From the IMG/VR virus record IMGVR_UViG_3300027686_000032, positions 1 to 24,790 of that record: DNA of 24,790 nt; one strand, given 5' to 3'. A model generated the notes under the pieces. It saw only the letters and a list, made by a program, of their open reading frames with translations. It was not told where the DNA came from and did not search any database. Positions 3 to 14,436 of this stretch are shown here, one piece after another. A program made the position numbers and the translations under genes. The stretch comes from a virus. Each line of letters begins with the position of its first letter. The stretch's first letter is position 1.

Positions 3-3000
3 AACGAGCTTGACCCAGAGACTCGATTTGCTATAGAGAACGCGCTAACGGTAGGCGAGGTTGTCCCCATCGGTAAACTGGCAGGCATGGCCAAGGGCGC
101 AGTAAGAAATGCTGGCGACAGGCGAATGATTAGTGACGCAGCTTCTGATGTCCCAGATGAAAGCTCATACCTGCCGCTGCAGGACCGGCTTGAAGAGATG
201 GGTGCTCGCCAGCTGGCTGTCGATGATGTCTCGCCTAAGCCAATCATGTTTAGGGATGTTGCACAGCCTGATCTTACTCCAGACCAGCTATCTAGGTCGT
301 TTAAAGACGGCGAGATAACCAACTACGGCAGGAATATTGCCCGGAAGCGAGCAGCAAAAGATATGGCAGGACAGACCTCCAAGGTCAAGAAGCTGTCTGA
401 AGTATTAGGTGACATGAACATCGAGGGCAAAGTTAGCATGGTTGCCACTCAGTCTGACAGGACTGGCATCAAAGACGGTGCAGGTCCGGGCTATCCTTTG
501 ATTGGTCGGCAGTATTCAGAGATGGCTAAGCTTTACCAAGACCAGTTTGGAGAGGCTCCTGTGCCTAGAATGCTGGACAAGAATGGTGAAATCACTGACT
601 ACCCTGTGTGGGCTGTTGATGCCAAAGGTACAGTAGCCAGCCTAAGAAACAATTTAAGAGAAGAGGGAACTATACTTGTCCCGATGATTGGCTCGCCAGG
701 ACAGCTTCGCACAAACAAAGAAGTATTTAAGAAGCTGAAGAAAGAATTTATGGCCGGCATTAAGGCCAACAAATTAGACGCAGATCAGGCTGACAAAATA
801 AACCTTAACCTAGAGGCGCTCACTGGAGACAAGATGGACATCAGAGATCCGTCATCTTGGATAGAGCTTGAGAAGACTTTTGATGGTCGTGGCGCATTGG
901 CTGACATTATGAGCGGAAAGACACCGCAGGCTATAGCTGCAGTCGGAGCAAGAAGTAAATGGCGCACTAAACTCAATAAGAAGCGAGCTGCTGATGGGCT
1001 TGAGCCTCTTGATCTAAACCCAAAGACGGCTCCTTTAGGAGCGCGTAAAGGCCAGATATTTGACTACGACAAGATATTAGAGGACTCCACAGAGTCTGTA
1101 CTCTTGGGCGCTGGAACTTTTGACATTGGCCCTTCACTAATTCTACCTTCTCGGTATAGGCAAAGTGAAACTATGCGTGATGCTCATCCTGGCTTTAAAG
1201 AGCAGTTGATGGGAGAGCTGGCATCTGATGATATTTTCACGCCCGTTCCGCTTGAGGCTGCAATGCCAAGCTTTATTGATCATGGCCGAGGTCTTCACAT
1301 GAGAGCCGGGCCTAACAAAAGGCCATTTAATTCAAGCGCCTGGGGAATGAATGCGCGTATGGGATACCCCGGCCAAGGTCTTCCAAGCCAGAAGATAGAC
1401 GAAGATTACCTAAAGTACCTGCAGGACATGGGCTTTGCCGAAGGCGGTGAGGTTGAGGTAGCTGAAGAGGTTAGCGTTGAGTACAACGCTGACAAGATCA
1501 GTGCTATGGCTGACGCGCTAATGAACGGAGATAGCTACGCCGAGGGCGGTGAGGTTAAGAAGCAGGCAACCAGAGATGACACGATTGGTTACAACGCGCC
1601 TAATTTACGCCGGGTAGCTGGCGATGTTCTTACAGACTTTGCGTCTGGCATATTCGGACCCATCGCATCATCTGCTATTTCTTTAGGCGAGCAAGCCTTT
1701 ACCGATAACACCATTGAAGAAATGATGGCTAACAATGAGGCTTACAATGATGCCCTTAACTTCAATCCCAGGACAAAAGAAGCTCAAGCTGTTAATAAAT
1801 CAGCTATGCAAGGTCTAGGCGCTGTCGTTAACGAGGGCATTGAATACTATGACCGAAACAAAAAGAATCTATCGCCTGAAGTTAGGCAATCCATAGCAGC
1901 AACCGGGCAGGCGTGGGAAGACTTAGATCCTCGCACGAAGTTTCTTATAGGAAATGCTGCCACAGTTGGCGAAGTATTGCCCATTGGTGGCGCGGTAAAG
2001 GCTGGCCTTAGAGTAGGAAGGAATGCAGTAGATCAAAGAAACTTAAACGCTGCTGCAGGGCAAGTACCCAGTGAAGCTTCTTACGAACCTTTACAGGATA
2101 GGCTAGAAGAAATGGGCGCAAGGCAGCTACAAGTTAGAGAGCCGGGCGATAATAACTTCTTGAATGAGTATGATAGTGATGTTCTTGGACTTGGTCCTGA
2201 AAGATTAATGTCACCCATTTCTACACCACAGACTGTTTCAAATAGATTAAATATTAAACTTACTGATGATGATATTGATGACCTTACCGATGATGAACTA
2301 AATAAGGCTAATGATGTTGTTGATTTGACTGAGAGAAGATATCCCGGATCAACGATAACTAACCGATGGCTTAACACTAAGCTAAAGAAGTATCTACAGA
2401 ATGAACTAGGCACAGGCCAAAACGATTCTATTGTTAGAGTAGCAGGTGACGCAGATAACATGCACTATGAAGTAACTGACTATACTTTAGGTATAGGCGA
2501 TCTTGATGAGCAGATAAATCTTGGCCAGTACAATGTTGAGGAGTATGGTCTGGAATATGATCCAAACATGATTAGGCTTGATTCGGAGTCAGACTTAGCT
2601 AAGTCATTTGAAGGAGCTTCGGATAAGTTATTAGACCAGCAGCAGGCTGGGACTATTAGAAAATCAGGATTAATTAAAAGAAGAATGGAAAATCGAGTGA
2701 GAAATTTGAATCGTAGAAAAGATTCAGAAGCCAGCCTAGAAAGTTTAATGGATGAAATGTATGAAGCCAATCCTTTCTTAAACAAGGTGCCTCCTGAAAC
2801 CAATATGTTTACTCTTAATGAAGACATTGCAGAAGAGTTACAGCTAGAGGTGCTTACTGAAGGTGTGCGTGAGTTGGTCGATCCAACGAATGAATTAGGC
2901 TTACCTCCAGAGCTGTACTTACCCGGAGATAAGATTTTAAAGATGTCAGTTGGAGAGGTCTCTGCCAGAGTTGGCGATCTTCGCCTTTGGAAAGAAAAAG

Positions 3001-3866
3001 AGATGACTAAGGGTTTTATAGAGTTAGCTCAGAAATCGCCCCGTATGATAGTCGATGGATTTGATATTGATTTTGCTAAAGAAAAAGGTGCTACTTGGGT
3101 AGACATACCTGACGCTTCATCAAGCAAGCAAAATAAAAAGATTTGCACATCATTAGGCAAGGGAGGAGAGTGGTGTACAAAGATTGAAAAACAAGCGCTT
3201 AATTACGGATCTGGAAACAGCAGTCTTACTGTAATGCTTGACGGAGATGGAAGACCTCATCTTCAAGTACAGTTCATTGCCAATTATAAAAATCAAAATG
3301 GCGATGATATCATTGATATTAAAGAGATAAAGCCACCGGGCAATGAGTTTGATCATCAAAAGTCAGCGTCTTACATTAGACAAGATCCTTTGTACGAAAC
3401 AAAACTAGCTGATGAGGTAATAAATTTTTTAAACAAAGTAGATAATGAAATGATAGTGGGTAATATTAATCCTGACGAACTAGAACTGTTCGGACTTGTT
3501 GACGTTGATGACACTATGAATTTTGAGGAAATATTAGATCAAAAGTATGGCGCTAGAGATGGGCTTGACATGGACGAGGTGCGGGATATTTATAATGTTT
3601 ACATGTCTAAAAGACAATTTAGCCCAGAAAAAACACCTAGAATTGTGCGTGAAGAGCAAATAATGGACTACATGGATTCAGGCGTATCTGATCTTGACCG
3701 TAGTGATTTTGCCAAAGGCGGTGCAGTTATCGCTAAATATGACGCAGATAAGATAAATAAACTTGCACAGGGTATAATGCCTGAGAACTTTGCTGAAGGC
3801 GGTCCAGTAATTTATAACGCTAGTCGAATTAATGAAATTGCCAACCAACTACTACAGGAGGCTTAA
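3..3866 (+). CDS. Giant modular phage protein, 3' part (possible polyvalent or ejected protein)
   Basis: The frame is open from base 3, so the gene begins upstream; the ATG at 87 is internal. At least 1287 codons are visible. Two units are seen. Each starts with a 70-aa block ending in PLQDRLEEMGARQL (6-215 and 1920-2129), continues with an unrelated central domain, and ends with [FY]A[EK]GGxV tags and a short helix (1434-1556 and 3708-3851). Central domain 1 has a SDRTGIKDGAGPGYP stretch that recalls domains of large phage polyvalent proteins. Central domain 2 has a WCTK motif near 3171 followed by a YGSG and GRPHLQVQF stretch, resembling a domain I have seen in other large phage proteins but cannot name. 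The last codons overlap the portal ribosome site. An upstream position next to the portal fits a virion-internal or co-injected protein. The function is unknown; the modular layout is certain. Confidence 0.85.
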   Translation, partial: NELDPETRFAIENALTVGEVVPIGKLAGMAKGAVRNAGDRRMISDAASDVPDESSYLPLQDRLEEMGARQLAVDDVSPKPIMFRDVAQPDLTPDQLSRSFKDGEITNYGRNIARKRAAKDMAGQTSKVKKLSEVLGDMNIEGKVSMVATQSDRTGIKDGAGPGYPLIGRQYSEMAKLYQDQFGEAPVPRMLDKNGEITDYPVWAVDAKGTVASLRNNLREEGTILVPMIGSPGQLRTNKEVFKKLKKEFMAGIKANKLDADQADKINLNLEALTGDKMDIRDPSSWIELEKTFDGRGALADIMSGKTPQAIAAVGARSKWRTKLNKKRAADGLEPLDLNPKTAPLGARKGQIFDYDKILEDSTESVLLGAGTFDIGPSLILPSRYRQSETMRDAHPGFKEQLMGELASDDIFTPVPLEAAMPSFIDHGRGLHMRAGPNKRPFNSSAWGMNARMGYPGQGLPSQKIDEDYLKYLQDMGFAEGGEVEVAEEVSVEYNADKISAMADALMNGDSYAEGGEVKKQATRDDTIGYNAPNLRRVAGDVLTDFASGIFGPIASSAISLGEQAFTDNTIEEMMANNEAYNDALNFNPRTKEAQAVNKSAMQGLGAVVNEGIEYYDRNKKNLSPEVRQSIAATGQAWEDLDPRTKFLIGNAATVGEVLPIGGAVKAGLRVGRNAVDQRNLNAAAGQVPSEASYEPLQDRLEEMGARQLQVREPGDNNFLNEYDSDVLGLGPERLMSPISTPQTVSNRLNIKLTDDDIDDLTDDELNKANDVVDLTERRYPGSTITNRWLNTKLKKYLQNELGTGQNDSIVRVAGDADNMHYEVTDYTLGIGDLDEQINLGQYNVEEYGLEYDPNMIRLDSESDLAKSFEGASDKLLDQQQAGTIRKSGLIKRRMENRVRNLNRRKDSEASLESLMDEMYEANPFLNKVPPETNMFTLNEDIAEELQLEVLTEGVRELVDPTNELGLPPELYLPGDKILKMSVGEVSARVGDLRLWKEKEMTKGFIELAQKSPRMIVDGFDIDFAKEKGATWVDIPDASSSKQNKKICTSLGKGGEWCTKIEKQALNYGSGNSSLTVMLDGDGRPHLQVQFIANYKNQNGDDIIDIKEIKPPGNEFDHQKSASYIRQDPLYETKLADEVINFLNKVDNEMIVGNINPDELELFGLVDVDDTMNFEEILDQKYGARDGLDMDEVRDIYNVYMSKRQFSPEKTPRIVREEQIMDYMDSGVSDLDRSDFAKGGAVIAKYDADKINKLAQGIMPENFAEGGPVIYNASRINEIANQLLQEA
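6..215 (+). repeat. Intragenic protein-level repeat, copy A
   Basis: Seventy codons that align without gaps to 1920-2129, with 42 of 70 residues identical by hand count. The most conserved parts are TVGEVxPIG and the final 14 residues PLQDRLEEMGARQL. Synonymous positions have diverged strongly, so the peptide rather than the DNA is being kept. It introduces central domain 1 of the giant protein. Confidence 0.9.
1434..1556 (+). repeat. AxGGxV tag pair closing unit 1 of the giant protein
   Basis: The tag FAEGGEV (1434-1454) is followed nine residues later by the helix-like YNADKISAMADAL (1482-1520), then by a second tag YAEGGEV (1536-1556). The same order, tag then Y[ND]A[DS][KR]I helix, occurs at the C-terminus of the protein (3708-3851), where unit 2 ends. 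Confidence 0.85.
1920..2129 (+). repeat. Intragenic protein-level repeat, copy B
   Basis: Second copy of the 70-codon block at 6-215. Its surroundings are about 50% G+C (hand counts of 30 of 60 at 1981-2040 and 31 of 60 at 2101-2160). Base composition falls abruptly just after it, to 17 of 60 at 2221-2280, as if central domain 2 had been placed behind a conserved leader. Confidence 0.9.
3708..3851 (+). repeat. AxGGxV tag and helix units closing the giant protein
   Basis: Two successive units: FAKGGAV (3708-3728) with YDADKINKLAQGI (3738-3776), then FAEGGPV (3789-3809) with YNASRINEIANQL (3813-3851). The spacers between tag and helix are three and one residues, against nine in the 1434 copy. 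The last unit lies 15 bases before the stop codon, so it forms the extreme C-terminus. Confidence 0.85.
3856..3861 (+). promoter_or_regulatory. Ribosome binding site fixing the portal GTG start
   Basis: AGGAGG lies six bases before GTG at 3868 and inside the last codons of the preceding gene. The in-frame ATG at 3832 has no comparable site at the right distance, so GTG is preferred. Start and upstream stop (3864-3866) are adjacent, which suggests translational coupling. Confidence 0.85.
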
Positions 3867-3867
3867 C

Positions 3868-6465
3868 GTGGCTGAAGAGAACGAGATTGAGATTGAAGTA
3901 GAAGAAGTTACAATGGTAGAGCTTCCAGAAGAAGATGAGCTAGAGTTTGAGGACACCGAAGACGGTGGAGCGATGGTACGCATGGAGACTATGTCTGTGC
4001 GAGAGGCTTCTGATCACTTTGAGAACATTGTGGAAGAGGTTGACCCTATCCTGTTAAAGTCTGCCATCAACGACCTGATGGAGAAGATAGAGCGCGACAA
4101 AGAAGCTCGCCAGAAGCGAGATCTGCAGTACGAAGAAGGTTTGCGCCGCACAGGTTTAGGCGATGACGCACCGGGAGGTGCCCAGTTTCAGGGAGCCAAC
4201 AAGGTTGTGCATCCTATGCTGGTCGAGGCGTGTGTTGATTTCTCTGCTCGATTCATCAAAGAGATATTCCCGCCCACAGGTCCAGTTAAGTCTAAGATTA
4301 TAGGCGAGGCCGACAGGGCGAAGGTAGGCAAGGCTCAGCGTAAGACTGAGTTTATGAACTGGCAGACTACAGAACAGATGGTCGAGTTTCGCTCAGAGTT
4401 AGAACAGTTAAGCACGCAGCTACCTTTGGGTGGCGGTCAGTACATGAAGTTCATGTGGAACGCTCGATTTATGCGCCCTGTGTCTGAGTTCGTTCCCATT
4501 GATGACATATACCTTCCCTTCTCAGCTACAAACTTCTACACCGCAGAACGTAAGACTCACGTTCAGTACGTCACGCAGATGGAATATGAGAAGCGCGTTG
4601 AGTCTGGAATGTACGCGGACATTGAATTACCCACGCCTACTGAGCCAGAGTATAGCGCAGCTGAACGTGCCAACGAGAAAATCGAGGGCAAGCAGAATAC
4701 TAGCTACAACGAAGATGGTCTGCGAACCATCTTTGAGATCTACACGTTCATGGACTTTGAAGATGGCGAAGGTTTAGCGCCTTACATCTTGAGCGTGGAC
4801 AAGTCTTCAGATAAAGCCTTGTGCCTTTACAGGAACTGGGAAGAAGATGACTCAAGGAAGAATGAACTGCATTGGATCGTAGAGTTCCCATTCGTACCGT
4901 GGCGTGGTGCTTACCCAATCGGCCTGACTCATATGATTGGTGGCCTTAGTGGAGCAGCGACTGGCGCATTACGAGCCCTACTAGACTCAGCTTACATTCA
5001 GAACGTGCCAACACTACTGAAGCTAAAGGGTGGCCCAGGCGGCCAGACCTTAAATGTTCAGCCTACTGAGATTGTTGAAATGGAAGGCGGCGCGTTGATT
5101 GATGACGTTCGCAAGCTGGCCATGCCGCTACCATTTGCTGGCCCAAGTCCAACATTGTTTCAGCTGTTAGGATTCCTAGTTGATGCAGGCAAGGGCGTGG
5201 TCCAGACTTCCTTTGAGAAGTTTAACGACCAAAACCCAAATGCCCCAGTGGGAACCACGATGGCAATCATCGAGCAGGGCATGGTTGTGTTTAGCTCAAT
5301 CCATTCTCGCTTACATTCCTCTATGGCTCGCAGTTTTAATATCCTTCATCGCATCAACAGCATGTACTACACTCAGGAAGAGCTAGATGCGCTGGACGCT
5401 GGGCTAGAGATCACTGCAGAAGACTTTGATGGCCCATCTGATGTTGTGCCGATCAGTAACCCAGCTATCTTTAGTGAGGCTCAGCGCTTCGCACAGATAC
5501 AAGCGATTATGGCGCGTGCTGAAAAATTTCCGCAAATGTACGACCAAAAAGCGGTTGAAGAAATGTTTCTGCGAACGCTAAAGGTTCCAGCTTCAGAAGT
5601 TATGCAAAAGCAAGCAGGCTCAGAAGATAGAGATCCAGTAAGCGAAAACGTAGCGGCAGCAATGAATCAAGGAATTTACGTGCTGCCTCAGCAAGATCAC
5701 TTGGCTCACCTGCAAGTTCACTTGCCGTTCTTAAAGTCGCCAATGTTTGGGTCAAGCCCTGGCATTATGAGCACATTCTTTTATCCAATGGCCATGCACA
5801 TGCGTGATCATCTATTGAACTACTACTTAGTGGAGTCTCATAACGCTATTGAACAGGCGCAGACTCAACAGTTGATACCTGAAGAGGCAGAGCAGCAGGT
5901 CGATGTAATCCTCAAGGTCCAGCAGTTTATTGAAGAACAGTTAGGTGGATTCGCTCAAGAACTGGTTCAGATTAATCAGCAAGCAGAGCAATTCAAGCCA
6001 GAGAATCAGCCTCAACAGCCTGGCGATGCAATGAAGATTGCAGAACTTAGTGCTCAAATTAAGCAGAGCGAACTTCAGCAGCGCACAGAGCGTGATGGAG
6101 CCCGAATACAGCTTGATAACGCTAAAATGCAGGCATCTAACGAGATTGCACAGCTTAAAATGCAGCAGACTGCTGAAATTGAACGCGCCAAGCTCGCAGC
6201 TAGTCAACAAGATCGTGAAGAAAGGTCAGAAATTGCTGGATTGCGTGAACTTTCTGCTACAGAGCGCAACAACATCAGTGAAATGTCTGAAACTGACCGC
6301 TTAAATACCCGTGAACAAGGCGAAAATAAGCGTAAGGCAGAAGATTTAGCTGCTAGAGAGCGAATGAACAGTTCCGATAACATGACCGCCAAAGAACTAG
6401 CGGCTATGGAGATGGAATCAGGCGAGAAAACTTCATACACCAGCGGTGGGGGAATTGATCCATAA
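3868..6465 (+). CDS. Portal protein, large podovirus type
   Basis: The 865-residue portal forms the dodecameric ring at one capsid vertex through which DNA is packaged and ejected. After an acidic N-terminus, the core includes QFQGANKVVHPMLVEA, a KEIFPPTGPVKSKI stretch and the LPLGGGQYMKF region, all typical of portals of P22-like or larger size; T7-type portals are much shorter at about 540 residues. From about residue 690 the protein becomes Gln/Glu/Ala-rich and strongly helical (EIAQLKMQQTAEIERAKLAASQ), which fits a long C-terminal barrel or coiled coil as in P22. It starts at GTG behind a perfect AGGAGG and overlaps the next gene by one base. The terminase is not in the window and is presumably upstream. 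The portal call is strong; the exact subfamily is not. Confidence 0.92.
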   Translation: MAEENEIEIEVEEVTMVELPEEDELEFEDTEDGGAMVRMETMSVREASDHFENIVEEVDPILLKSAINDLMEKIERDKEARQKRDLQYEEGLRRTGLGDDAPGGAQFQGANKVVHPMLVEACVDFSARFIKEIFPPTGPVKSKIIGEADRAKVGKAQRKTEFMNWQTTEQMVEFRSELEQLSTQLPLGGGQYMKFMWNARFMRPVSEFVPIDDIYLPFSATNFYTAERKTHVQYVTQMEYEKRVESGMYADIELPTPTEPEYSAAERANEKIEGKQNTSYNEDGLRTIFEIYTFMDFEDGEGLAPYILSVDKSSDKALCLYRNWEEDDSRKNELHWIVEFPFVPWRGAYPIGLTHMIGGLSGAATGALRALLDSAYIQNVPTLLKLKGGPGGQTLNVQPTEIVEMEGGALIDDVRKLAMPLPFAGPSPTLFQLLGFLVDAGKGVVQTSFEKFNDQNPNAPVGTTMAIIEQGMVVFSSIHSRLHSSMARSFNILHRINSMYYTQEELDALDAGLEITAEDFDGPSDVVPISNPAIFSEAQRFAQIQAIMARAEKFPQMYDQKAVEEMFLRTLKVPASEVMQKQAGSEDRDPVSENVAAAMNQGIYVLPQQDHLAHLQVHLPFLKSPMFGSSPGIMSTFFYPMAMHMRDHLLNYYLVESHNAIEQAQTQQLIPEEAEQQVDVILKVQQFIEEQLGGFAQELVQINQQAEQFKPENQPQQPGDAMKIAELSAQIKQSELQQRTERDGARIQLDNAKMQASNEIAQLKMQQTAEIERAKLAASQQDREERSEIAGLRELSATERNNISEMSETDRLNTREQGENKRKAEDLAARERMNSSDNMTAKELAAMEMESGEKTSYTSGGGIDP

Positions 6466-7160
6466 TGGCATTCTTGCAAAGCAACATACCGCACTTTAAG
6501 TGCTGGGTCAGGAAAGAATACACTCACAATCATGAGAAGTTTCATGGCGAGTGGATTCATGCGATGGCCGTAGCTGTTACGACTTTACCGAATCGCTGTT
6601 TAAGCTTCCAGATGATATTTACTGGGGCTGAAACTTATGACACAGATGAATCTAATGTTCACGGAGGAGCAATGTGGGCAAGAATGCCCATAACTGCTCT
6701 AATGGGGGACACTCCAGTTGACGAGTGGCCAGAGCCAATGTCTACACATGACGCCCAGCCTTGGGATTGTGCATCTCACACTCACAGCGTCTATGTTCTA
6801 GACCGATGTACGCCAGCCCCTTGGCTGGCAAAGATTGACGGGAAGTTTTATCCTGCCAAATACTATTTTACGGTGGACTATACCGATTCAGAAGTAGCAG
6901 ACGATCCAGCTCAACATAAGCAGGCGCACGTTCTAGAACTTCTTGATGCAGGAAAATGGACGGGTAACATAGTAGCGTTACCGAATAATCGGGTCCGGGT
7001 AAGTCACCCAGCTTGGTTTGAATTGGGAGAAGGCGCTCCTGATTTCAGGCCGTCCCAGCATATCCACTACAGCAAGTCTGATCTGGATTATACGCTGGAC
7101 GTTAACCAAGTTTTTGATAACATTTATGCAGCAGAGGAAGAAGAAAATGATGAAAAGTAA
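6465..7160 (+). CDS. Conserved phage hypothetical protein, 231 aa
   Basis: ATG overlaps the portal stop (TAATG), so the two are translationally coupled. The protein is rich in Trp, His and Pro, with conspicuous stretches FLQSNIPHFKCWVRKEYTHN near the start, NVHGGAMWARMPITALMGDTP around residue 65, DGKFYPAKYYFTVDY around residue 126 and LPNNRVRVSHPAWF around residue 175. It has no signal peptide or membrane segment. I have the impression of a compact conserved protein seen next to portals in marine podoviruses, with no assigned function. A role in head assembly or as a minor virion protein is inferred only from position. The acidic tail EEEENDEK overlaps the start of the next gene. Confidence 0.85.
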   Translation: MAFLQSNIPHFKCWVRKEYTHNHEKFHGEWIHAMAVAVTTLPNRCLSFQMIFTGAETYDTDESNVHGGAMWARMPITALMGDTPVDEWPEPMSTHDAQPWDCASHTHSVYVLDRCTPAPWLAKIDGKFYPAKYYFTVDYTDSEVADDPAQHKQAHVLELLDAGKWTGNIVALPNNRVRVSHPAWFELGEGAPDFRPSQHIHYSKSDLDYTLDVNQVFDNIYAAEEEENDEK

Positions 7161-7320
7161 AGGTTACGCCAAAGGCGGTAAAACCAAAGGCGGTAAAATG
7201 AAAACTAAAGGCTACGCTAAGGGCGGTGCAGTCAATATGGACTCAGATCAAGTAAGACAGCACAAGCGCATGGCCGCTGGATACATGATTAAAACAGGTT
7301 CTGGTAACACGCCCGCATAA
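7147..7320 (+). CDS. Small Lys/Gly-rich protein with KGYAKGG tags
   Basis: A 57-aa protein starting at the double ATG 7147/7150, behind GAGGAAG inside the end of the preceding gene (14-base overlap). The frame is open further upstream to 7018, but that part is only a shadow of the 231-aa gene. It has a basic head with KGYAKGG repeated twice and a KGGK spacer, then a short tail MDSDQVRQHKRMAAGYMIKTG. The same head, MKSKGYAKGG..MKTKGY, opens the protein at 13060 with different codons. The YAKGG core also matches the AEGG/AKGG tags of the giant protein upstream. The function is unknown; a DNA-binding or virion-packaged peptide is a guess from charge and context. Confidence 0.8.
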   Translation: MMKSKGYAKGGKTKGGKMKTKGYAKGGAVNMDSDQVRQHKRMAAGYMIKTGSGNTPA

Positions 7321-7333
7321 CAGGAGATATTTC

Positions 7334-7519
7334 ATGGCAGCTAAACCAGGTTTGTACGCAAATATTGCAGCTAAACAGAAACGTGTTGCAGCGGGTAAAA
7401 AAGATCCAGCTACAGGTAAGCTTGAGAAAATGCGTAAGAAAGGGCAGGCAGGTGCGCCATCAGCTGGGGCTTTTGTGAGCGCAGCTAAGACAGCGAAAAA
7501 GCCTAAGAATAATGCTTAA
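7334..7519 (+). CDS. Small basic protein of the KPGLYANI type
   Basis: A 61-residue, very Lys/Ala-rich protein preceded by AGGAG (7322-7326). The motif run KPGLYANI, KQKRVAAGKK, KMRKKGQAGAP and AFVSAAKTAKK matches a short protein type I recall from several marine phage genomes, where it is unannotated. There are no membrane segments or cysteines. The high positive charge suggests nucleic-acid contact or an internal head component, but nothing proves it. Its stop overlaps the next start (TAATG). Confidence 0.82.
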   Translation: MAAKPGLYANIAAKQKRVAAGKKDPATGKLEKMRKKGQAGAPSAGAFVSAAKTAKKPKNNA

Positions 7520-7716
7520 TGAATATAGACTCAAAGTTACTAAATATTCTCAAGGCTAATCAAGCAGAGTTTGCGCTTGAAGCCTTGCAGAAGCCACACA
7601 AGAACGATGCTTTTGAGTACGGGTATCGGGTAGGAACGGTTGCAGGTTACGAGGCATCCATTAATGTACTTTTAAATCTATTAGACGAGGAAAGAAATAA
7701 TGACCACGACTTATGA
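7519..7716 (+). CDS. Small hypothetical protein, 65 aa
   Basis: ATG overlaps the preceding stop by one base, and the gene runs 17 bases into the next gene, so it sits in a coupled run of four small genes. The sequence ILKANQAEFALEALQKPHKNDAFEYGYRVG followed by a Leu-rich helix is probably all helical. I have no functional family for it. The spacing and overlap on both sides are the main support that it is real. Confidence 0.75.
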   Translation: MNIDSKLLNILKANQAEFALEALQKPHKNDAFEYGYRVGTVAGYEASINVLLNLLDEERNNDHDL

Positions 7717-8116
7717 GGACGCAATCGCGGAGGCTTTTCCAGAAGTTTGTTCTGGCATTCAGCCTTTCGGTAGCCGCGTTCTGGTTCAGATACGCACCGC
7801 TAAGAATAAAACAGCTGGGGGCATTTTACTAACTACGGACACCACTGACACTGAGAAGTGGAATACGCAGGTAGCCAAAGTTGTCACAGTTGGGCCATTA
7901 GCTTTTAAAAATCGTAATACGATGGAAAGCTGGCCAGAAGGAAACTGGTGTAAGGAAGGTGAGTTTGTGAGAGTTGCTAAGTACGGAGGAGACCGATGGG
8001 AAGTACCTATTCCTGACGCAACCAATGGCGAAGCAGCAATGTTTGTAATTTTTAATGATCTTGACATTTTGGGTAGCGTAATTGGCGATCCCCTTAAAGT
8101 TAAGGCATTCATCTGA
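7700..8116 (+). CDS. GroES-like co-chaperonin (phage Cpn10)
   Basis: A 138-aa protein with the Cpn10 pattern in order. PFGSRVLVQ (residues 22-30) is the first strand. NKTAGGILLTTDTT (36-49) matches the mobile loop with its GroEL-binding Ile-Leu-Leu. VAKVVTVGP (58-66) comes next, then KEGEFVRVAKYGG (85-97) and FVIFNDLDILGSV (115-127), corresponding to the GroES SESDILAIV end. It is longer than bacterial GroES (97 aa) because of a 20-residue N-terminal extension and an insert near residues 67-84. Phage co-chaperonins such as T4 gp31 replace GroES in host GroEL complexes to fold capsid protein. Location just before the scaffold and capsid genes agrees. No GroEL-like gene is visible, so host GroEL is the likely partner. 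Confidence 0.82.
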   Translation: MTTTYEDAIAEAFPEVCSGIQPFGSRVLVQIRTAKNKTAGGILLTTDTTDTEKWNTQVAKVVTVGPLAFKNRNTMESWPEGNWCKEGEFVRVAKYGGDRWEVPIPDATNGEAAMFVIFNDLDILGSVIGDPLKVKAFI

Positions 8117-8130
8117 TAAGGAGATGAGTA

Positions 8131-9066
8131 ATGGCTGAACAAGAAAATATAGAAGATGTGCTGATTGAAAACGATGAGCAAGAAGAAGAACTGGTGATTG
8201 TTGAAGAAGAACCTTCTAAAGAAGATTCTGATGATGACGAACGTGTTGCGGCTGAGTCTGATGACGATGACTCTGAGCGCGAGGCTATACGTGAACGTAG
8301 GCGTAAAGAAAAAGTAGATCGTAAAGGAAGGCGTGAGACCGCCATCAAGCGCGACAAAACAGAGTTGGACTTTTTGCGAGGTCGAAATGATGATCTTGAG
8401 AAGCGTATCAGCAATCAAGAGCAGCGAAACCGCAATCAAGATATTCAAGGCATTGATGCAGCTATTGCTCAAGCCAACAAAGAAGTAAACATGGCTGAAC
8501 GAGTTATCGCCAAAGCTGTTGAGAACAATAACGGCAATGACGTAACGAAAGCGATGAAATATCGTGACGAGGCGATGAATAAAGCGCAGCATCTTCACTA
8601 CAATAAGCAGCAAGCAGCGCAACAAGTAAACACCGCGCCACAGGTTGATGACCGGACTATGCATCTGGCAAAGCAGTTCATGGACGATAATCCGTGGTAC
8701 GACTCACATGGTCGAGATGAAGATTCTGCAATTGTAATGGCGATTGATCAGTCTCTTAGTCGAGATGGTTACAATCCTCAAACCGAAGAATACTGGGACG
8801 AGCTAACTGCTCGATCTGCGCGTAGGTTACCAGAGCGTTTTGATGACGATGGGGGTTCACGAAAGCCTGAAAAGTCTGTTCGCAAGGCACGGGGTGGCCC
8901 AGCAGTTGGGTCAGGAAAAGAACACGCGCCGTCTTCGACTCGCAGGGAAGTTTATATAAGCCCAGAACGCAAAGCTGCTTTAGTAGAAGCTGGAGTGTGG
9001 GACGATCCTGTCTTACGGACTCGATATGTGAAGCGATACGCTGCATACGACAAAAGTAACGCATAA
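8131..9066 (+). CDS. Probable capsid scaffolding protein
   Basis: A 311-aa protein that starts after AAGGAG (8118-8123). The first 55 residues are extremely acidic with DDDD/EEE runs, followed by a charged coiled-coil region around residues 50-170. A conserved block comes next, AKQFMDDNPWYDSHGRDEDS...GYNPQTEEYWDELTARSARRLPERF (about 185-240), and a basic C-terminus ends RTRYVKRYAAYDK. Acidic, helical proteins with a basic C-terminal capsid-binding tail immediately upstream of the capsid gene are the hallmark of P22-type scaffolds, which fill the prohead and leave before packaging. The NPWYD..EYWDEL block is one I associate with podovirus scaffolds. No protease domain is seen. Confidence 0.78.
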   Translation: MAEQENIEDVLIENDEQEEELVIVEEEPSKEDSDDDERVAAESDDDDSEREAIRERRRKEKVDRKGRRETAIKRDKTELDFLRGRNDDLEKRISNQEQRNRNQDIQGIDAAIAQANKEVNMAERVIAKAVENNNGNDVTKAMKYRDEAMNKAQHLHYNKQQAAQQVNTAPQVDDRTMHLAKQFMDDNPWYDSHGRDEDSAIVMAIDQSLSRDGYNPQTEEYWDELTARSARRLPERFDDDGGSRKPEKSVRKARGGPAVGSGKEHAPSSTRREVYISPERKAALVEAGVWDDPVLRTRYVKRYAAYDKSNA

Positions 9067-9090
9067 GCAACACTTAAATAAAAAACTTGC

Positions 9091-9119
9091 TTTATTATGT
9101 GCAAAACACACATAATAGA
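9091..9119 (+). other. AT-rich intergenic hairpin
   Basis: The left arm TATTATGTG (9093-9101) pairs perfectly with CACATAATA (9109-9117) across a 7-base loop. A U-G pair and an A-U pair could extend the stem to 11. No T-run follows, so it is not a standard intrinsic terminator. It occupies most of the 79-base gap between the scaffold and the next gene and ends 12 bases before AAGGAG (9130-9135). A role in mRNA processing, stability or partial termination is possible. Confidence 0.6.
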
Positions 9120-9145
9120 ACAATCGCTGGAAGGAGCGACTAAAT

Positions 9146-9682
9146 ATGAGCAAAACAGACGAACGACTAAAGAAACACGCAGACGAAGGACGAGAGAACC
9201 GTCAGATGACAGATCGTGTCATTACAGAAAATCGGGAAGTATCGGAAAGCGAGCGCGTAGAAATGTTCCGTCAGAATTTATTTCAGTCTTCATTGCCTGA
9301 TCTACCTGAATTACCCGGCTGGCATATGTGCTGGCTTACAACAACTAACTCGCGTGATTCAATCCAAATGCGTATTCGCTTAGGATATGAACCAGTTAAG
9401 CCAGAAGACGTTCCTGGCTGGGAGTACGCTTCACTCAAAACGGGTGATTGGCAAGGCTTCATTGGGGTTAATGAAATGCTGGCTTTTAAGCTGCCTATTT
9501 CTTTGTACGAGAAGTTTATGATGGAAGCCCATCATGACGCTCCGAATCGAGAAGAAGGTAAGTTACGAGACACCGCTGACTTCTTAGCCCAACAGGCTGA
9601 AGGATCGGGCAGCAACATTGTTCAAGGTGATGGTAGTAAAAGTCTTGGAGAGAGCCGCTTAGGTCAATTTGATCTGGGCTGA
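9146..9682 (+). CDS. Conserved head-region hypothetical protein, 178 aa
   Basis: It starts after AAGGAG at 9130-9135. The N-terminal 45 residues are highly charged and helical (KTDERLKKHADEGRENRQM). A folded region with PELPGWHMCWLTTTN (about 55-69) and MRIRLGYEPVKPEDVPGWEY (75-94) follows, then a Gly/Ser-rich tail. Proteins of this kind, with the GWHxCWLTTTN pattern, sit between scaffold and capsid genes in podovirus genomes I recall, without assigned function. Position suggests a minor capsid or assembly role. It contains no enzyme motif I recognise. Confidence 0.82.
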   Translation: MSKTDERLKKHADEGRENRQMTDRVITENREVSESERVEMFRQNLFQSSLPDLPELPGWHMCWLTTTNSRDSIQMRIRLGYEPVKPEDVPGWEYASLKTGDWQGFIGVNEMLAFKLPISLYEKFMMEAHHDAPNREEGKLRDTADFLAQQAEGSGSNIVQGDGSKSLGESRLGQFDLG

Positions 9683-9714
9683 CGAACAATCTATTTAACC
9701 AAAGGAGCAACAGT

Positions 9715-10308
9715 ATGTCAGCGACTACTGAAGCATTTGGCTTTCGCGCTTCCTACCACAATAGTGGCCGAATCACAGCGAAAGCTTACACCATTGCCAG
9801 CGGATACGCCCAAAACGTATTCTCAGGAGACCCAGTAAAACTAGTAGATACTGGTGTTATTCAATTAGCTACATCTAACGGCCAACGTGGCGGCACATCT
9901 GCAGGTATCCTTAATCTGGGTATTTTTGCTGGCGTCCAATATGATGACGCGTTAGGCAGGCCCACTCTATCGCCATTTTGGCCAGCGAGTGCCGCAGCAA
10001 CAAATATTATCGCTTTCGTTTATGACGATCCAGAAACTATATTTGATGTTGAGTACCCTAACCCAGCAGCTGGAACTACGGTTCAAACAGCAGTTGGCGA
10101 AGAGTGCGATTGGACTGTAGCTACACCTGGCGGCTCAACAGCCACTGGTCTGTCCTCTACTTCCTTAACTGCTATCCAAGCCGGAACTGGTCAATACCAG
10201 ATCACTGGCGTTGCTGGTGGTCCTAATAACCTGATTACAGATGCATTTGTTGTAGTGACTGTTCGTATTAACGAACATCAATACAAAGCTTCTGTAGCAT
10301 CTGTATAA
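9715..10308 (+). CDS. Probable capsid decoration (cement) protein
   Basis: A 197-aa protein behind AAGGAG (9702-9707). It lacks cysteine-rich or catalytic motifs and looks all-beta. GFRASYHNSGRITAKAYTIASGYAQN opens it, FAGVQYDDALGRPTLSPFWPAS lies at residues 75-95, and AFVYDDPETIFDVEY at about 100-115. The FRPxYHxSG opening and the YDDP motif match a family found directly before the major capsid gene in several podoviruses and usually annotated as head structural protein. Immediate coupling to the capsid gene (13-base gap) supports a stoichiometric capsid component. The decoration role is inference. Confidence 0.75.
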   Translation: MSATTEAFGFRASYHNSGRITAKAYTIASGYAQNVFSGDPVKLVDTGVIQLATSNGQRGGTSAGILNLGIFAGVQYDDALGRPTLSPFWPASAAATNIIAFVYDDPETIFDVEYPNPAAGTTVQTAVGEECDWTVATPGGSTATGLSSTSLTAIQAGTGQYQITGVAGGPNNLITDAFVVVTVRINEHQYKASVASV

Positions 10309-10314
10309 GGAGGT
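10307..10314 (+). promoter_or_regulatory. Near-perfect Shine-Dalgarno of the capsid gene
   Basis: AAGGAGGT, partly inside the preceding stop codon, lies seven bases before ATG 10322. It is the longest anti-16S match noticed in the window, as expected for the most abundant virion protein. Confidence 0.85.
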
Positions 10315-10321
10315 CTGAAAA

Positions 10322-11236
10322 ATGGCTACTCCCATGAGAAGTACAGACTTTCGTTCGGTTGTTGAACCAATCCTTAACGAAGTCTTTGATGGCGTTTATG
10401 ATCAACGAGCTGACGAATGGAAGCAAATTTTCCGTGAGCAAAAAGGCATTCCACGCAATTACCACGAAGAACCAGTTCTTTATGGCTTTGGCGCGGCTCC
10501 TGAGCTTCCCGATGGTATGGCAGTTACATATCAATCAGGCGGTATCTTGTTTGTTCAGCGTTATCTTTACCATGTCTACGGCCTTGCGTTTGCATTGACC
10601 AAAGTATTGGTTGAAGACGGCGATCACATTCGTATCGGTCAAACTTACGCCAAGCATTTGGCGCAATCTTTGATTGAGACAAAAGAAACATTAACTGCCA
10701 ATGTATTGAATCGTGCGTTTAACGCAGCATTCGTTGGTGGCGATGGTCGTTCGTTAACTAACACTGCTCACCCGATTGTTCAGGGTTCATTCAGCAACCA
10801 GCTCACTACTGCTGCTGTTCTGTCCCAGACTTCTCTTGAGCAGATGCTCATTCAAATTCGCAACGCTGTTGACAACAATGGTAAGCGTATTCGTTTGACT
10901 CCGACTCAGATTATTACTGGACCAAGTAATGTTTTCCAAGCGGAAACTTTGCTTAAATCAGTATTGAAGTCTGGAACTGCTGACAACGACATTAACCCCG
11001 TTAAATCGATGGGTTTATTGGCAGATGGTCAGGCTAACATGTCTCGTATTACGTCTAACACAGCATGGTGGGTTCAGACTGATGCTCCAGAAGGTTTAAA
11101 ACTTCTGATGCGTCGAGGTCTTGAGAAGTCTATGGAAGGCGATTTTGCAACTGACTCTATGCGCTACAAAGCGACAGAGCGTTACACAGTTGGCTGGACA
11201 GATCCGCGTGCAGTGTTTGGCACCGCAGGTGTATAA
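10322..11236 (+). CDS. Major capsid protein, HK97 fold
   Basis: The 304-aa coat protein forms the icosahedral head. An N-terminal helix (RSTDFRSVVEPILNEVFDGVYD) is followed by the E-loop-like region around LYGFGAAPELPDG (about 55-68). The long spine helix includes IGQTYAKHLAQSLIETKETLTANVLNRAF (100-130). Then come TNTAHPIVQGSFSNQLTTAA, TPTQIITGPSNVFQAETLLKS (around 195-215) and the terminal ERYTVGWTDPRAVFGT. The last motif and the AHP..GGTFSNQ-like segment are typical of coat proteins of this class. There is no N-terminal delta domain, which agrees with a separate scaffold gene, and no protease gene is seen. It has the strongest ribosome site in the window and a strong terminator right after the stop. 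Confidence 0.93.
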   Translation: MATPMRSTDFRSVVEPILNEVFDGVYDQRADEWKQIFREQKGIPRNYHEEPVLYGFGAAPELPDGMAVTYQSGGILFVQRYLYHVYGLAFALTKVLVEDGDHIRIGQTYAKHLAQSLIETKETLTANVLNRAFNAAFVGGDGRSLTNTAHPIVQGSFSNQLTTAAVLSQTSLEQMLIQIRNAVDNNGKRIRLTPTQIITGPSNVFQAETLLKSVLKSGTADNDINPVKSMGLLADGQANMSRITSNTAWWVQTDAPEGLKLLMRRGLEKSMEGDFATDSMRYKATERYTVGWTDPRAVFGTAGV

Positions 11237-11245
11237 GTAAGTACC

Positions 11246-11288
11246 GCTCTTAACTCTATGGCTCTCCTTATAGAGTTAAGAGCATTTT
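11246..11288 (+). terminator. Intrinsic terminator after the capsid gene
   Basis: The arms GCTCTTAACTCTAT (11246-11259) and ATAGAGTTAAGAGC (11270-11283) form a perfect 14-bp stem with a 10-base loop, followed by ATTTT. It starts ten bases after the capsid stop. Partial read-through probably lets the following genes be expressed at a lower level, since no clear promoter follows. Confidence 0.88.
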
Positions 11289-11305
11289 ACCAAATTTAAT
11301 TTGGT
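11289..11305. other. 17-base odd-centred palindrome
   Basis: ACCAAATT and AATTTGGT flank a single T, directly abutting the terminator T-run. The one-base loop argues against an RNA hairpin of this exact form; a protein-binding site or a part of the terminator region are the alternatives. Confidence 0.5.
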
Positions 11306-11363
11306 TGCTGACAGCTTAGGCTGACGACATGCAGACAGCAGCTAAATCTTTTAACTCGCATGT

Positions 11364-11368
11364 GAGGA
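11364..11368 (+). promoter_or_regulatory. Ribosome binding site choosing start 11377
   Basis: GAGGA sits eight bases before ATG 11377. The upstream in-frame ATG at 11329 has no such site and would add 16 residues unlike the rest of the protein. Confidence 0.7.
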
Positions 11369-11376
11369 ATTTTAAA

Positions 11377-11859
11377 ATGGCTAATACTACTTTTAGCGGT
11401 CCAGTAACTTCGACCAACGGCTTTATCGGCAATTTAACCGGCAACGTGACAGGTAACGTAACCGGCAGCATCAGCGGCGGCAAGATAGTTAATCCTACCT
11501 ATTCGCATGTGGCTGTAACAGCTAACGCTACTGCAACACTTACGGCAGATAAGGTTGCTGCAGGATACATTACATGTACCTCGGCTGCTGCCACTATTTT
11601 AACATTGCCTACTGGTACCTTATTGGGTACAAAGTTAGGCGCATCAAAAGGTACAGTTTTTGACTTGTACATTGATAACACCGCAGGTGCAAACGTAGTA
11701 ACAATCGCGGTTGCCACCAATGGTATTATATCTGCACTGGGTGCTGCCGTTGCTGCCAGCGCTGGTCTTAAAACAATTCCTGCTGGCGTGACTGGTCAAG
11801 CTAAATTTACTCTTATGTTCTCTAGCGCAACAGCATACACGTTTACGCGCGTTGCATAG
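11377..11859 (+). CDS. Beta-repeat structural protein (head-fibre-like)
   Basis: A 160-aa protein. The start opens with FSGPVTSTNGFIG and runs into a four-residue tandem repeat, GNLT GNVT GNVT GSIS (about residues 18-35), as seen in the beta-helical shafts of phage head and tail fibres. The rest is Ala/Thr/Gly-rich, all-beta, lacks cysteine apart from one, and has a small domain TVFDLYIDNTAGANVVTIAVATNG near residues 90-115. Position directly after the capsid gene and terminator favours a head fibre or decoration protein, but a tail-associated fibre is possible. Confidence 0.72.
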   Translation: MANTTFSGPVTSTNGFIGNLTGNVTGNVTGSISGGKIVNPTYSHVAVTANATATLTADKVAAGYITCTSAAATILTLPTGTLLGTKLGASKGTVFDLYIDNTAGANVVTIAVATNGIISALGAAVAASAGLKTIPAGVTGQAKFTLMFSSATAYTFTRVA

Positions 11860-11884
11860 ATTTTAGAACTTAGAGGAGTAAATT

Positions 11885-12532
11885 ATGCGTCCAGTTAAAA
11901 TAGGTGCATTGACGCCAACAGGTGTTTCCCCAATCTGGTTTAATGGGAACGGGCTCACTAGTACTGGTGCGGCGGTTGCCGTCCAGACAACCAGCACATT
12001 CGATGGGCTTGCTCATAGAGTGACATTGACCGCTCCCGTTCAGGCCACCTTGGCAGGTATTGCATTCACGATCGTCGGGACTAACGCCAATGGCGCTGCC
12101 CAGACTGAAGTGATCGCAGCTGGTCCTGCAAGTGGAGCGACAGTGAGTAGTACTCAGTTTTTTCTTACTGTTGAAACTATACAGCCTAATGCCACTATGG
12201 GTACTAAAGTCTTATCGGTAGGCTTATTGAGTGAAGCTGTGGGTTATTGGGTCAATTTAGAAAACACGATGTCTGCCCCGATGGTTATGGTCGGCGTCAC
12301 TGGAACGATAAATTATAGCGTGTTCCAAACGCCTGCGAATATCTTTGATGCTCCAGAGCGAGATGCTATCTATACGTCAATCGGAATGCCGATTACGGGC
12401 CTTGCGGCTGCTACAGCTAATGCTTTGGCTGCAGGTGGCGAAAGTTGTCGAGCCATTATGCTCCGCGTTAATTCATTTACTGCAGGCGCGACCATCACGG
12501 TGTACATCAACAACTCAGGTGGAGGTTACTAA
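11885..12532 (+). CDS. Beta-rich virion structural protein, 215 aa
   Basis: ATG lies behind AGAGGAG in the 25-base gap. The sequence is low in charge and rich in Thr, Ala, Val and Gly, with a TIVGTNANGAAQTEVIAAGP segment (about 60-80) and FLTVETIQPNATMG (about 90-105) typical of small beta-sandwich virion proteins. It has no catalytic motif. Sequence style and location between the head-fibre-like gene and the adaptor fit a head-surface or connector component. Its stop overlaps the next ATG (TAATG). Confidence 0.7.
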   Translation: MRPVKIGALTPTGVSPIWFNGNGLTSTGAAVAVQTTSTFDGLAHRVTLTAPVQATLAGIAFTIVGTNANGAAQTEVIAAGPASGATVSSTQFFLTVETIQPNATMGTKVLSVGLLSEAVGYWVNLENTMSAPMVMVGVTGTINYSVFQTPANIFDAPERDAIYTSIGMPITGLAAATANALAAGGESCRAIMLRVNSFTAGATITVYINNSGGGY

Positions 12533-13047
12533 TGACAATTAAGTATATGTCTGAATTTGACTTCCCTTCTGATTTCGGCTTTACAAAATCCTCATCTACA
12601 GCGAAAATGAGTCGTGGCGGCATGAGAAATCTACGTGACGAAGAGTCTCGCGTTATTGGGGTTCAGGATAATGCAGCTGATGAAATGCGTAGAGTATCTG
12701 GGCGTAAGTCTAATGACGCTGCAGAGCGTAAAGATAAACGTGCTCAAATGGATCGTGTTAGCTCGCGTGAGCGTAACGCCCGTGATGAGATGACTAGATT
12801 GCGCGGTGAAGCTAGAAATGGCTTTAAGGCAGCTAAAGGCGGTTCTGAAAAGGACTGGATAAAAGGTGCTGTAAAAAAGCCGGGTGCTCTTCGTGAGTAC
12901 ATGGAAACTCCTGAAGGGCAAAGCATTTCCAAAAGCAAGTTAAATAAAGTTGCTTCTGGCAAACCAGCTATAGTGGGTGGTCCTAAGCCATCTGCTAAAA
13001 CGATGAAGCGAGCAAATCTTGCTAAATCATTTTCCAAAATGAAATAA
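12532..13047 (+). CDS. Basic heptad-repeat protein, 171 aa
   Basis: The charged segment at residues 33-96 repeats a motif of the form N-x-x-D-E-M-x-R-V-x-G. The equivalent residues fall at 38, 52, 73 and 87, that is 14, 21 and 14 apart, all multiples of seven. This indicates a long coiled coil or rod. The C-terminal third is Lys/Ser/Pro-rich and basic (KPSAKTMKRANLAKSFSKMK). No family is recognised. Basic, helical and located next to another basic tagged protein, it may be a virion-internal or DNA-contact protein; this is inference. Confidence 0.78.
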   Translation: MTIKYMSEFDFPSDFGFTKSSSTAKMSRGGMRNLRDEESRVIGVQDNAADEMRRVSGRKSNDAAERKDKRAQMDRVSSRERNARDEMTRLRGEARNGFKAAKGGSEKDWIKGAVKKPGALREYMETPEGQSISKSKLNKVASGKPAIVGGPKPSAKTMKRANLAKSFSKMK

Positions 13048-13059
13048 GGATACTTAGAC

Positions 13060-13356
13060 ATGGGTATGAAATCAAAAGGCTATGCAAAAGGCGGTATGAA
13101 AACTAAGGGTTATTCCAAGGGTGGTAAAACTCAAGGTTATAACGCTCGTTTAGATGATTCGATGGGTTCTAGGAATGGCTCAAAAAGTCAGTCTATGAAG
13201 TCTCGCCGGAATGAAAGCGAAGGTATGGAAAAATCCATGGGTAAGCGTAAGTTTTCTGGCAATAAAATGATGGACGTAGGATCTTCTAAAGGCGCTGTAG
13301 GTTCAGCAGAGATGAAAGAATTTAAGAAAATGGGCACCATGAAGAACAGCTGGTAG
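13060..13356 (+). CDS. Small basic protein with KGYAKGG tags, 98 aa
   Basis: It starts behind AAGGA 12 bases after the previous stop. The head MKSKGYAKGG..MKTKGYSKGG..QGY almost repeats the opening of the 57-aa protein at 7147 but in different codons. The remainder is Ser/Lys/Met/Gly-rich and looks disordered (SMGSRNGSKSQSMKSRR, MGKRKFSGNKMM). No cysteine or membrane segment is present. The shared head suggests that both proteins go to the same place or bind the same partner. Function is unknown. Confidence 0.8.
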   Translation: MGMKSKGYAKGGMKTKGYSKGGKTQGYNARLDDSMGSRNGSKSQSMKSRRNESEGMEKSMGKRKFSGNKMMDVGSSKGAVGSAEMKEFKKMGTMKNSW

Positions 13357-13425: not shown

Positions 13426-14436
13426 ATGGCTTATTCGGGAAACATTGGGGTTAAAACATTTAATGCGCTGAAAGTCGTAGACCACGCTTTCCGCAGGTGT
13501 CGCCTGCCTGCTCAGGCCATAACTTCAGAAATGCAAGAATATGCACTTGATTCTCTGACATTCATGCTCGATGAGCTGGCCAATATACGGACACCATCTT
13601 GGTGCATAGAGCAGCAAATACTGCCTCTTTACGAAAATAATCAAATTGTCAAGCTTCCAAAGGGCACAATTGACGTTTTAAACCTAAATTTAAACGTACT
13701 TCAAGAGCTAAGTGGCACTGTAACATCCACAAATACCTCTTATTTAGTTAATTTTACTACCTCCACAATAGTCAATTTCATTGGAATTAAATGGTCTGCG
13801 AACGCTATTCCAGTCAATTTTCAGACTAGTTCAGACAATGCTGCTTGGACTACGGTAGGAACTTCGACTAGTCTTGATTTATCAACCAATGCGACAGCGG
13901 TTGCTGGTAATATTACTTGGACTCAAATTAATGGCGCTTTAGCCAAGCAATACTTTAGAATCGTACCAACTGATGGTGCTTCTACTATCTCTTCCTCCCG
14001 AATTACGTTAGGAAATATGCCTCAAGCCATTCCTCTTGGCTTATTGAGTAGAGATAATTATGTAAACCAAAGCAATTTAGTATTTGCTGGACGCCCCAGT
14101 AGCTTCTACTACCAGCGTGATATTCCTCAGCCAGTTGTTAATTTATGGCCAGCGCCTAACGCTGCGTCTGAAAAGTTTCAATTAGTGCTCTGGCGTCACC
14201 GCCAAATAATGGATACCGACAACTTACAGCAAGAGATTGATATACCTAATCGGTGGTTAGAGGCTATAATCAATGGGTTAGCGGCTAGGGTATGCGCTGA
14301 AACACCCTCTGCAGATGCTCAACTTATGCCAATGCTCGATGCTAAAGCAACAATGAGTATGCAACGAGCTTGGGATGGCGATAATGATGGATCTGCAATT
14401 CAAATCAATCCAGGAATAGGGGTTTACACAGCGTGA
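13426..14436 (+). CDS. Head-to-tail adaptor, P22 gp4-like, with inserted F5/8C-like domain
   Basis: The 336-aa protein joins portal and nozzle after packaging. The N-terminal helical part (residues 10-92) has VVDHAFRRCRLPAQAITSEMQEYALDSL, FMLDELAN and VKLPKGTIDVLNL, typical of gp4-like adaptors. The C-terminal part resumes at about residue 200 with LSRDNYVNQ, FYYQRDIPQPVVNLWPAPN and IPNRWLEAIINGLAARVC. Between them about 105 residues (DNA about 13708-14022) form a beta domain with FIGIKWSANAIPVNFQTSSDN, WTTVG and ITWTQINGALAKQYFRI, the pattern of discoidin (F5/8 type C) carbohydrate-binding domains. The start lacks a strong ribosome site. The core call is firm; the insert family is likely but needs a structure check. 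Confidence 0.87.
   Translation: MAYSGNIGVKTFNALKVVDHAFRRCRLPAQAITSEMQEYALDSLTFMLDELANIRTPSWCIEQQILPLYENNQIVKLPKGTIDVLNLNLNVLQELSGTVTSTNTSYLVNFTTSTIVNFIGIKWSANAIPVNFQTSSDNAAWTTVGTSTSLDLSTNATAVAGNITWTQINGALAKQYFRIVPTDGASTISSSRITLGNMPQAIPLGLLSRDNYVNQSNLVFAGRPSSFYYQRDIPQPVVNLWPAPNAASEKFQLVLWRHRQIMDTDNLQQEIDIPNRWLEAIINGLAARVCAETPSADAQLMPMLDAKATMSMQRAWDGDNDGSAIQINPGIGVYTA

Follow-up and report, generated by a model that had tools for sequence, protein, structure and literature searches.

A repeated KGYAKGG peptide on small basic proteins of a podovirus-like phage, a candidate docking motif, and a related tag on a giant modular protein

In phage T7, the protein gp7.3 (99 residues, with a mostly positive N terminus) is located on the nozzle subunits at the adaptor junction, where it touches the end of the DNA (PMC11784390). 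In T4, a ten-residue capsid targeting sequence (CTS) forms the N-terminal head of different small basic internal proteins such as IPII and IPIII (PMC9026906). Polyvalent proteins (Iyer et al. 2017; PMC5512222) combine several modules in one polypeptide, have genes next to those of portal and terminase, and are predicted to be packaged. We describe here a locus that can be compared with all three: a 24.8 kb virus record (IMG/VR record IMGVR_UViG_3300027686_000032, positions 1 to 24,790; hereafter the window), which corresponds to the late gene block of a podovirus-like phage and in which a short peptide, KGYAKGG, is found on two small basic proteins, P57 and P98, and a related form on a giant modular protein.

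The initial annotation of the window had reported the same head on P57 and P98, 5.9 kb apart, and we recovered MKSKGYAKGG exactly in both. The use of different synonymous codons was also borne out: four of the ten codons differ, by 6 nucleotides (nt) in total, all of them synonymously, and five of ten differ between the second copies (MKTKGYAKGG in P57, MKTKGYSKGG in P98). What the annotation had missed is that the peptide forms a repeat, present in different copy numbers from one relative to another. The YAKGG core that it had noticed on the giant protein (87-3866) is indeed there, as four [FY]A[KE]GG copies. The small carriers and their repeats are the following.

7147..7320, + strand: P57, small basic protein of 57 amino acids (aa), isoelectric point (pI) 10.4, charge +11, reading MMKSKGYAKGGKTKGGKMKTKGYAKGGAVNMDSDQV...
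7150..7179, + strand: MKSKGYAKGG, copy 1 in P57
7198..7227, + strand: MKTKGYAKGG, copy 2 in P57, then AV and the clade-specific tail NMDSDQV.QHKRMA
13060..13356, + strand: P98, small basic protein of 98 aa, pI 10.3, charge +14, reading MGMKSKGYAKGGMKTKGYSKGGKTQGYN...
13066..13095, + strand: MKSKGYAKGG, copy 1 in P98
13096..13125, + strand: MKTKGYSKGG, copy 2 in P98

The longest word common to P57 and P98 is 10 aa, and 3000 composition-preserving shuffle pairs gave 7 aa at most. The pattern [FY][AS][KE]GG is present twice in P57 (0 of 100,000 shuffles reach two copies), twice in P98 (matched by 1 of 100,000) and four times in the giant protein (0 of 20,000). Over all window genes it was counted eight times, the shuffle mean being 0.05 and the maximum 2 in 2000 shuffles, and none was found in the four other reading frames of the window. 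In the search of related phages proposed with the initial annotation, 13 related records yielded 37 back-translated copies, which within any one record always share a strand; the reversed control pattern was absent from these records. A looser motif, counted over 84 loci and phage records, was found 213 times versus 42 expected and a maximum of 55. Since the shuffles and the reversed-pattern control exclude it, the motif is not a product of Lys/Gly richness, and the concern that it could be equally common in random Lys/Gly proteins did not hold. A recent DNA duplication of the heads is disfavoured by the synonymous differences between the copies and by the saturation of synonymous sites elsewhere.

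In relatives, the P57 slot is occupied by proteins made of one to five units, or bricks, of the form [MK]K-x-KG-[YF]-[AS]-K-GG, joined to one of several tails (NMDSDQV.QHKRMA; GPTQGQRQ.YKRTG; RGCGAATKGTKHSNKMG; MTLAQ.RAAAKAKGYKL.K; MYN.GGMVKS.G..NTGI). The bodies beyond the shared head differ, as had been stated for the two window proteins, and the peptide sits on otherwise unrelated proteins, in one to five copies and at either end. The brick units exist in 224 distinct DNA forms that encode 46 peptides; in the brick core, the proportion of synonymous differences (pS) is 0.75, synonymous sites being saturated, and that of nonsynonymous differences (pN) is 0.09, a value biased low by the choice of the units by pattern. 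These comparisons support the view that KGYAKGG behaves like a short linear motif conserved at the protein level.

The motif genes are tied to two neighbours, p231 and the adaptor gene p336.

6465..7160, + strand: p231, acidic neighbour of KGYAKGG genes, phrog_3704 "ferredoxin", with predicted SH3/Tudor-like barrels
12532..13047, + strand: p171, small basic protein (+18), fused in frame to P98 in some relatives
13426..14436, + strand: p336, SU10-adaptor family protein, directly downstream of P98

The first 14 nt of the P57 gene lie within the 3' end of p231. Among 120 loci chosen only by the KGYAKGG DNA pattern, 69 hold p231, and in 68 of these the motif was located at most 1.5 kb from p231 on the same strand (37 upstream, 31 downstream). 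Without near copies, 40 of 41 p231 genes had KGYAKGG within 1.5 kb. The association was also recovered when 66 loci were fetched by p231 alone and inspected for a small open reading frame (ORF) with K/G repeats within 900 bases: such an ORF was present on the same strand in 54 of the 66 loci (25 of 35 non-redundant ones) and never on the other strand, the same test giving 0/59 around the capsid gene and 0/73 around p197. In the portal-to-adaptor regions, KGYAKGG-type motifs were found in 27 of 28 loci with p231 versus 17 of 41 without it, these loci being related and partly redundant, so that the Fisher value is not a clean probability. The repeats beside p231 in loci chosen by p231 alone often read GMAKGG, YMAKGG or KYKSRGG, and KGYAKGG is thus one form of a wider [YM]xxGG repeat.

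The p231 proteins of different phages are 54-90% identical to the window copy, even where capsids are only about 37-40% identical. The p231 model (predicted local distance difference test, pLDDT, 78) contains two SH3/Tudor-like barrels, and the fold search returned only SH3/Tudor-like barrels, with Z up to 6.8, below the informative level of the tool. The charges of p231 and P57 are opposite (-17 versus +11). A fusion of p231 with a repeat protein was not seen in the relatives, except for a basic C-terminal extension in one locus (L193). More distant members of the p231 family (25-30% identity) are labelled PurM, phosphoribosylaminoimidazole synthetase or ferredoxin in T4-like cyanophages and Pelagibacter phages; no result obtained here supports the PurM or the ferredoxin label. 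The tie to KGYAKGG genes is the first physical lead on this widespread orphan of marine phages.

The adaptor gene p336 was within 1.5 kb of KGYAKGG in 44 of the 47 pattern-chosen loci holding it. In the P98 slot of relatives, the brick is N-terminal, near the C terminus (L089 and L100), at both ends, or absent, and p171 and P98 form a single fused protein in several of them (L010, L103, L104 and L049, for example). Distant phages have a single motif gene, in a block where it either precedes p231 and p336 or stands between them; in the window clade, p231 lies behind the portal gene with a motif gene beside it, and another one is often present beside p336. The presence of two motif genes at separated partners suggests a simple history, in which p231 would have moved behind the portal together with a motif gene, the other having stayed or arisen at the adaptor. 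Pfam and PHROG profile searches with P98 produced no match.

Other basic bricks, namely DUF6321, phrog_7595, phrog_16028 and DUF6496, occupy slots beside p231 or the adaptor (L364:3674-3979, L333:2943-3185, L345:1502-1678, and L057 before p336). Matches to DUF6321 also lie at the C-terminal ends of PHROG profiles for large proteins, and a phrog_7595-like brick aligns within a profile named "minor head protein and DNA pilot".

The [FY]A[KE]GG copies of the giant protein are distributed as follows, the portal-position gene being listed with them.

87..3866, + strand: giant modular protein, 1259 aa, upstream of the portal, C-terminal module PcfJ-like
1434..1520, + strand: giant tag 1, FAEGGEV...YNADKISAMADAL, at a module boundary
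1536..1556, + strand: giant tag 2, YAEGGEV
3708..3776, + strand: giant tag 3, FAKGGAVIAKYDADKINKLAQGI, near the C terminus
3789..3863, + strand: giant tag 4, FAEGGPVIYNASRINEIANQLLQEA, the final 25 residues
3832..6465, + strand: portal-position protein, 877 aa, homologous to genes annotated as portal or head-to-tail connecting protein

Within its last 60 residues, the product of the pre-portal gene has an xGG motif followed by a [YF][DNS]...[IVL] helix in 35 of 43 non-redundant loci, versus 9 of 602 inner blocks; for the stricter [FY][AS].GG core, the corresponding counts are 30 of the 43 and 40 of the 602. In the giant tags, GG is followed by an extra Y[DN]P..I..I...L helix. The bodies that precede these ends are mosaics: each module of the window protein (at about aa 48-440, 510-703 and 750-1190) aligns on its own to relatives, in which the order is different, and where the first module is C-terminal (L036, L117, L122) a tag-like end then follows. 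PcfJ (PF14284) was matched by 6 of the 21 relatives that share the C-terminal module, at E values down to 1.4e-9, the window member itself being unmatched. The PcfJ-like module is modelled as a folded part and then a low-confidence tail, in which pLDDT falls below 50 near the GG motifs and residues 520-529 and 545-558 of the model form short helices. A giant-type gene is also located between terminase and portal in MW202545 and DSL-LC04. In DSL-LC04, the PcfJ-like protein shows FAEGGEV close to its N terminus and a small protein contains YAKGG. A tblastn search of the phages collection with the tag gave no match, the query being perhaps masked as low complexity.

The model of the PcfJ-like module (aa 701-1259; window 2187-3863) resembles GNAT acetyltransferases. 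Nearly all rows of the fold search (VIA) are GNAT-fold acyltransferases, the best being HAT1 (Z 9.5, 122 residues, root-mean-square deviation 2.9), the best Foldseek E is 0.002, and inspection by eye revealed no obvious acetyl-CoA loop; this modelled resemblance could possibly provide a fold assignment for PcfJ-like proteins. Two copies of a linker, SYxPLQDRLEEMGARQL, are found in the giant protein, one near aa 26 and the other near aa 670; the linker recurs in relatives and is possibly another module-joining element. A gene of 560-625 aa downstream of the p620 homologue, with FARGGLA or FSRGGLT, is a further candidate carrier in the late block (G001:26257-27969, G003:20395-22272, G004:37387-39297). 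Large proteins of other phages with [FY]A[KED]GG near GEGTETSDDVPAMLS (L159:14123-16069, L116:8845-10819) or near RGPGDGMDIPALAHG (L084:46368-47252) may represent a different phage module.

The best explanation overall, to which we give a probability of roughly 0.4, is that KGYAKGG is a reusable docking motif, P57 and P98 being portal-tail-type proteins and the giant tag a head-cargo tag. P57 and P98 would then be small, basic and probably disordered proteins in which brick copies are joined to different tails. P57, probably translationally coupled to p231 by the overlap of the two genes, would most likely bind the acidic p231, and P98 would most likely be placed at the junction between portal and adaptor, where, as T7 gp7.3 does, it would contact the tail and the end of the DNA. 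In the giant protein, the [FY]A[KE]GG.V motif and its short helix, found C-terminally and also at boundaries between inner modules, would most likely recruit this polyvalent (PcfJ-like) protein to the portal while the particle assembles, so that it is ejected together with the DNA; this motif fits a cargo tag because it is terminal, flexible and kept while the bodies change.

Several observations weigh against this docking explanation. The stronger selection on the head than on the remaining P57, which had been suggested as a check, was not seen: among 17 P57 orthologues, pN/pS was 0.31 in the last unit, a figure inflated by two of the 17 rows that are shifted by one codon with an inserted residue, and 0.26 in the tail, so that both parts are constrained and the head is not singled out. 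No significant homology was found between the P57 tail and the helix half of the giant tag (position-specific scoring matrix, PSSM, P = 0.20), and this half is only doubtful in P98 (P = 0.04, one of five tests). Each pattern can also occur without the other: L010 has small KGYAKGG proteins but no giant gene, and in G003 and G006 the giant tags are present and P57-type small KGYAKGG proteins are missing. Loss in near relatives, which had been named as damaging, was observed in part, since phage KcrB, whose capsid is 80% identical, lives without KGYAKGG, p231 or a giant gene before the portal. Finally, p231 is found among replication genes, without a K/G-repeat neighbour, in the Pelagibacter phages HTVC027P and HTVC008M and the cyanophage S-CAM22. 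Its role in the virion is thus a candidate one only, and the initial label "virion-cluster" is weakened for P57, whose tied neighbour it is.

These points bear most on whether one signal or two are present. The proposal of a shared targeting or binding signal stands as far as a conserved peptide on unrelated proteins is concerned; a single target for P57, P98 and the giant protein is only possible, because P57 is devoid of the helix and either pattern occurs without the other. In favour of one signal, the core is shared, both forms belong to late genes and both are found on exchangeable bodies. We nevertheless consider it rather doubtful that one receptor, with the same site, would serve the small-protein and the giant motifs. 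Still more speculative, and in our opinion unlikely, is the broader proposal that [FY]A[KE]GG is the address peptide of a large, mostly uncultured aquatic podovirus group, read by one portal-side receptor both in the small-protein repeats and in the helix-bearing giant ends, whichever protein bears the tag then being loaded into the head.

The missing helix half in P57 and the independent presence of the small and giant patterns across relatives would be expected if a convenient glycine turn had been used twice, once in a small-protein repeat family tied to p231 and the adaptor and once in a separate giant C-terminal tag, the five shared residues being due to convergence. The third residue, mostly K in the small proteins and E, K, D, A or S in the giant tags, and the GMAKGG, YMAKGG or KYKSRGG forms of other p231 neighbours point the same way. 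However, the two sets overlap: in sister phages the small proteins on the adaptor side include YADGG and YAEGG forms, and the giant tags include YAKGG. In both sets, the GG is often followed by A or S and then V; we regard convergence as a serious possibility, without considering it probable. The strong positive charge of P57, p61, p171 and P98 (+11 to +18) among mostly acidic proteins, the variation from one to five copies and the use of DUF6321, DUF6496, phrog_7595 and phrog_16028 bricks in the same slots could instead reflect a repeat that condenses nucleic acid in small head or tail-channel proteins, by lysine charge, glycine flexibility and tyrosine stacking, with no specific partner. Such a role is quite unlikely in our view: the giant protein is itself acidic, with E frequently replacing K in its tags, and for a role based on charge alone the A, Y and GG positions vary too little. 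A maturation-cleavage site, cut after GG or K/E, with the heads as propeptides like those of the T4 internal proteins, would agree with the N-terminal position in P57 and P98, with the placement of the giant tags C-terminally and where modules meet, and with the resemblance of identical heads on different basic proteins to IPII and IPIII (PMC9026906). It appears very improbable given that the [LI]xE site of T4 is absent, that V is often retained two positions past the GG, that the position of the motif varies from N-terminal to near the C terminus and that no protease family was found among the window genes scanned, the record being a fragment.

The gene order of the window begins with the giant protein, the portal, p231, P57, p61, p65, GroES and a scaffold-like acidic protein; two further proteins, the major capsid protein, two proteins, p171 and P98 come next, followed by the SU10-adaptor family protein, tail and fibre genes, a holin and a second adaptor. 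The phage was placed with the capsid gene.

10322..11236, + strand: major capsid protein

Its capsid relatives include the Caulobacter phages RW, RLK, KcrB and GB2A (80%), as well as Roseobacter CRP-901, Pelagibacter HTVC023P and HTVC027P and Planktothrix Pag-Yong1, and at least 600 stretches of IMG/VR. The GroES (Cpn10) gene (window 7700-8116), between the portal and capsid genes, was kept in the relatives inspected, KcrB, HTVC023P and Pag-Yong1 among them. A PDB sequence search with P57, P98, the portal and the capsid as queries returned nothing useful.

To our knowledge, the way in which large effector proteins enter the phage head has been worked out in detail for only a few phages. A terminal tag of this kind, short and constant while the body is exchanged, would provide a sequence handle for ejected effectors in metagenomes and a candidate for a loading signal.

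Among the known systems, T7 gp7.3 may be, by analogy, the best functional parallel for P98. The two proteins are close in length (98 aa versus 99 aa), charge (+14 versus +10) and pI (10.3 versus 10.1), and P98 also resembles both gp7.3 and gp6.7, small ejected virion proteins, in its length, strong positive charge and K/G-rich composition. The P98 gene adjoins that of the SU10-adaptor family protein, and in T7 it is at the junction of adaptor and nozzle that gp7.3 acts, so that a similar place in the virion would be conceivable for P98. In contrast, no sequence match to P98 was found in gp7.3 or gp6.7, neither has an [FY][AS].GG motif, and gene 7.3 is upstream of the portal gene in T7. The ten-residue N-terminal head common to the small basic P57 and P98, with their different bodies, is reminiscent of the T4 CTS, but MKSKGYAKGG has no acidic residue, hence no [LI]xE site, and the brick is repeated in variable number and in relatives can also be internal or near the C terminus; scanning of the window genes, the record being a fragment, gave no prohead protease. 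The giant protein resembles polyvalent proteins by its several modules and is encoded directly upstream of the portal; the passages searched in PMC5512222 contain no terminal [FY]A.GG.V plus Y[DN]P..I tag, and PcfJ is not named in its main text. DUF6321, DUF6496, phrog_16028 and phrog_7595 are likewise free small basic proteins, or parts of proteins, in the same gene slots, with sequences unlike the KGYAKGG brick. We found no publication naming or describing the KGYAKGG peptide. Targeting or docking peptides and small basic virion proteins are known kinds of elements, whereas the KGYAKGG form and its distribution appear to be new.

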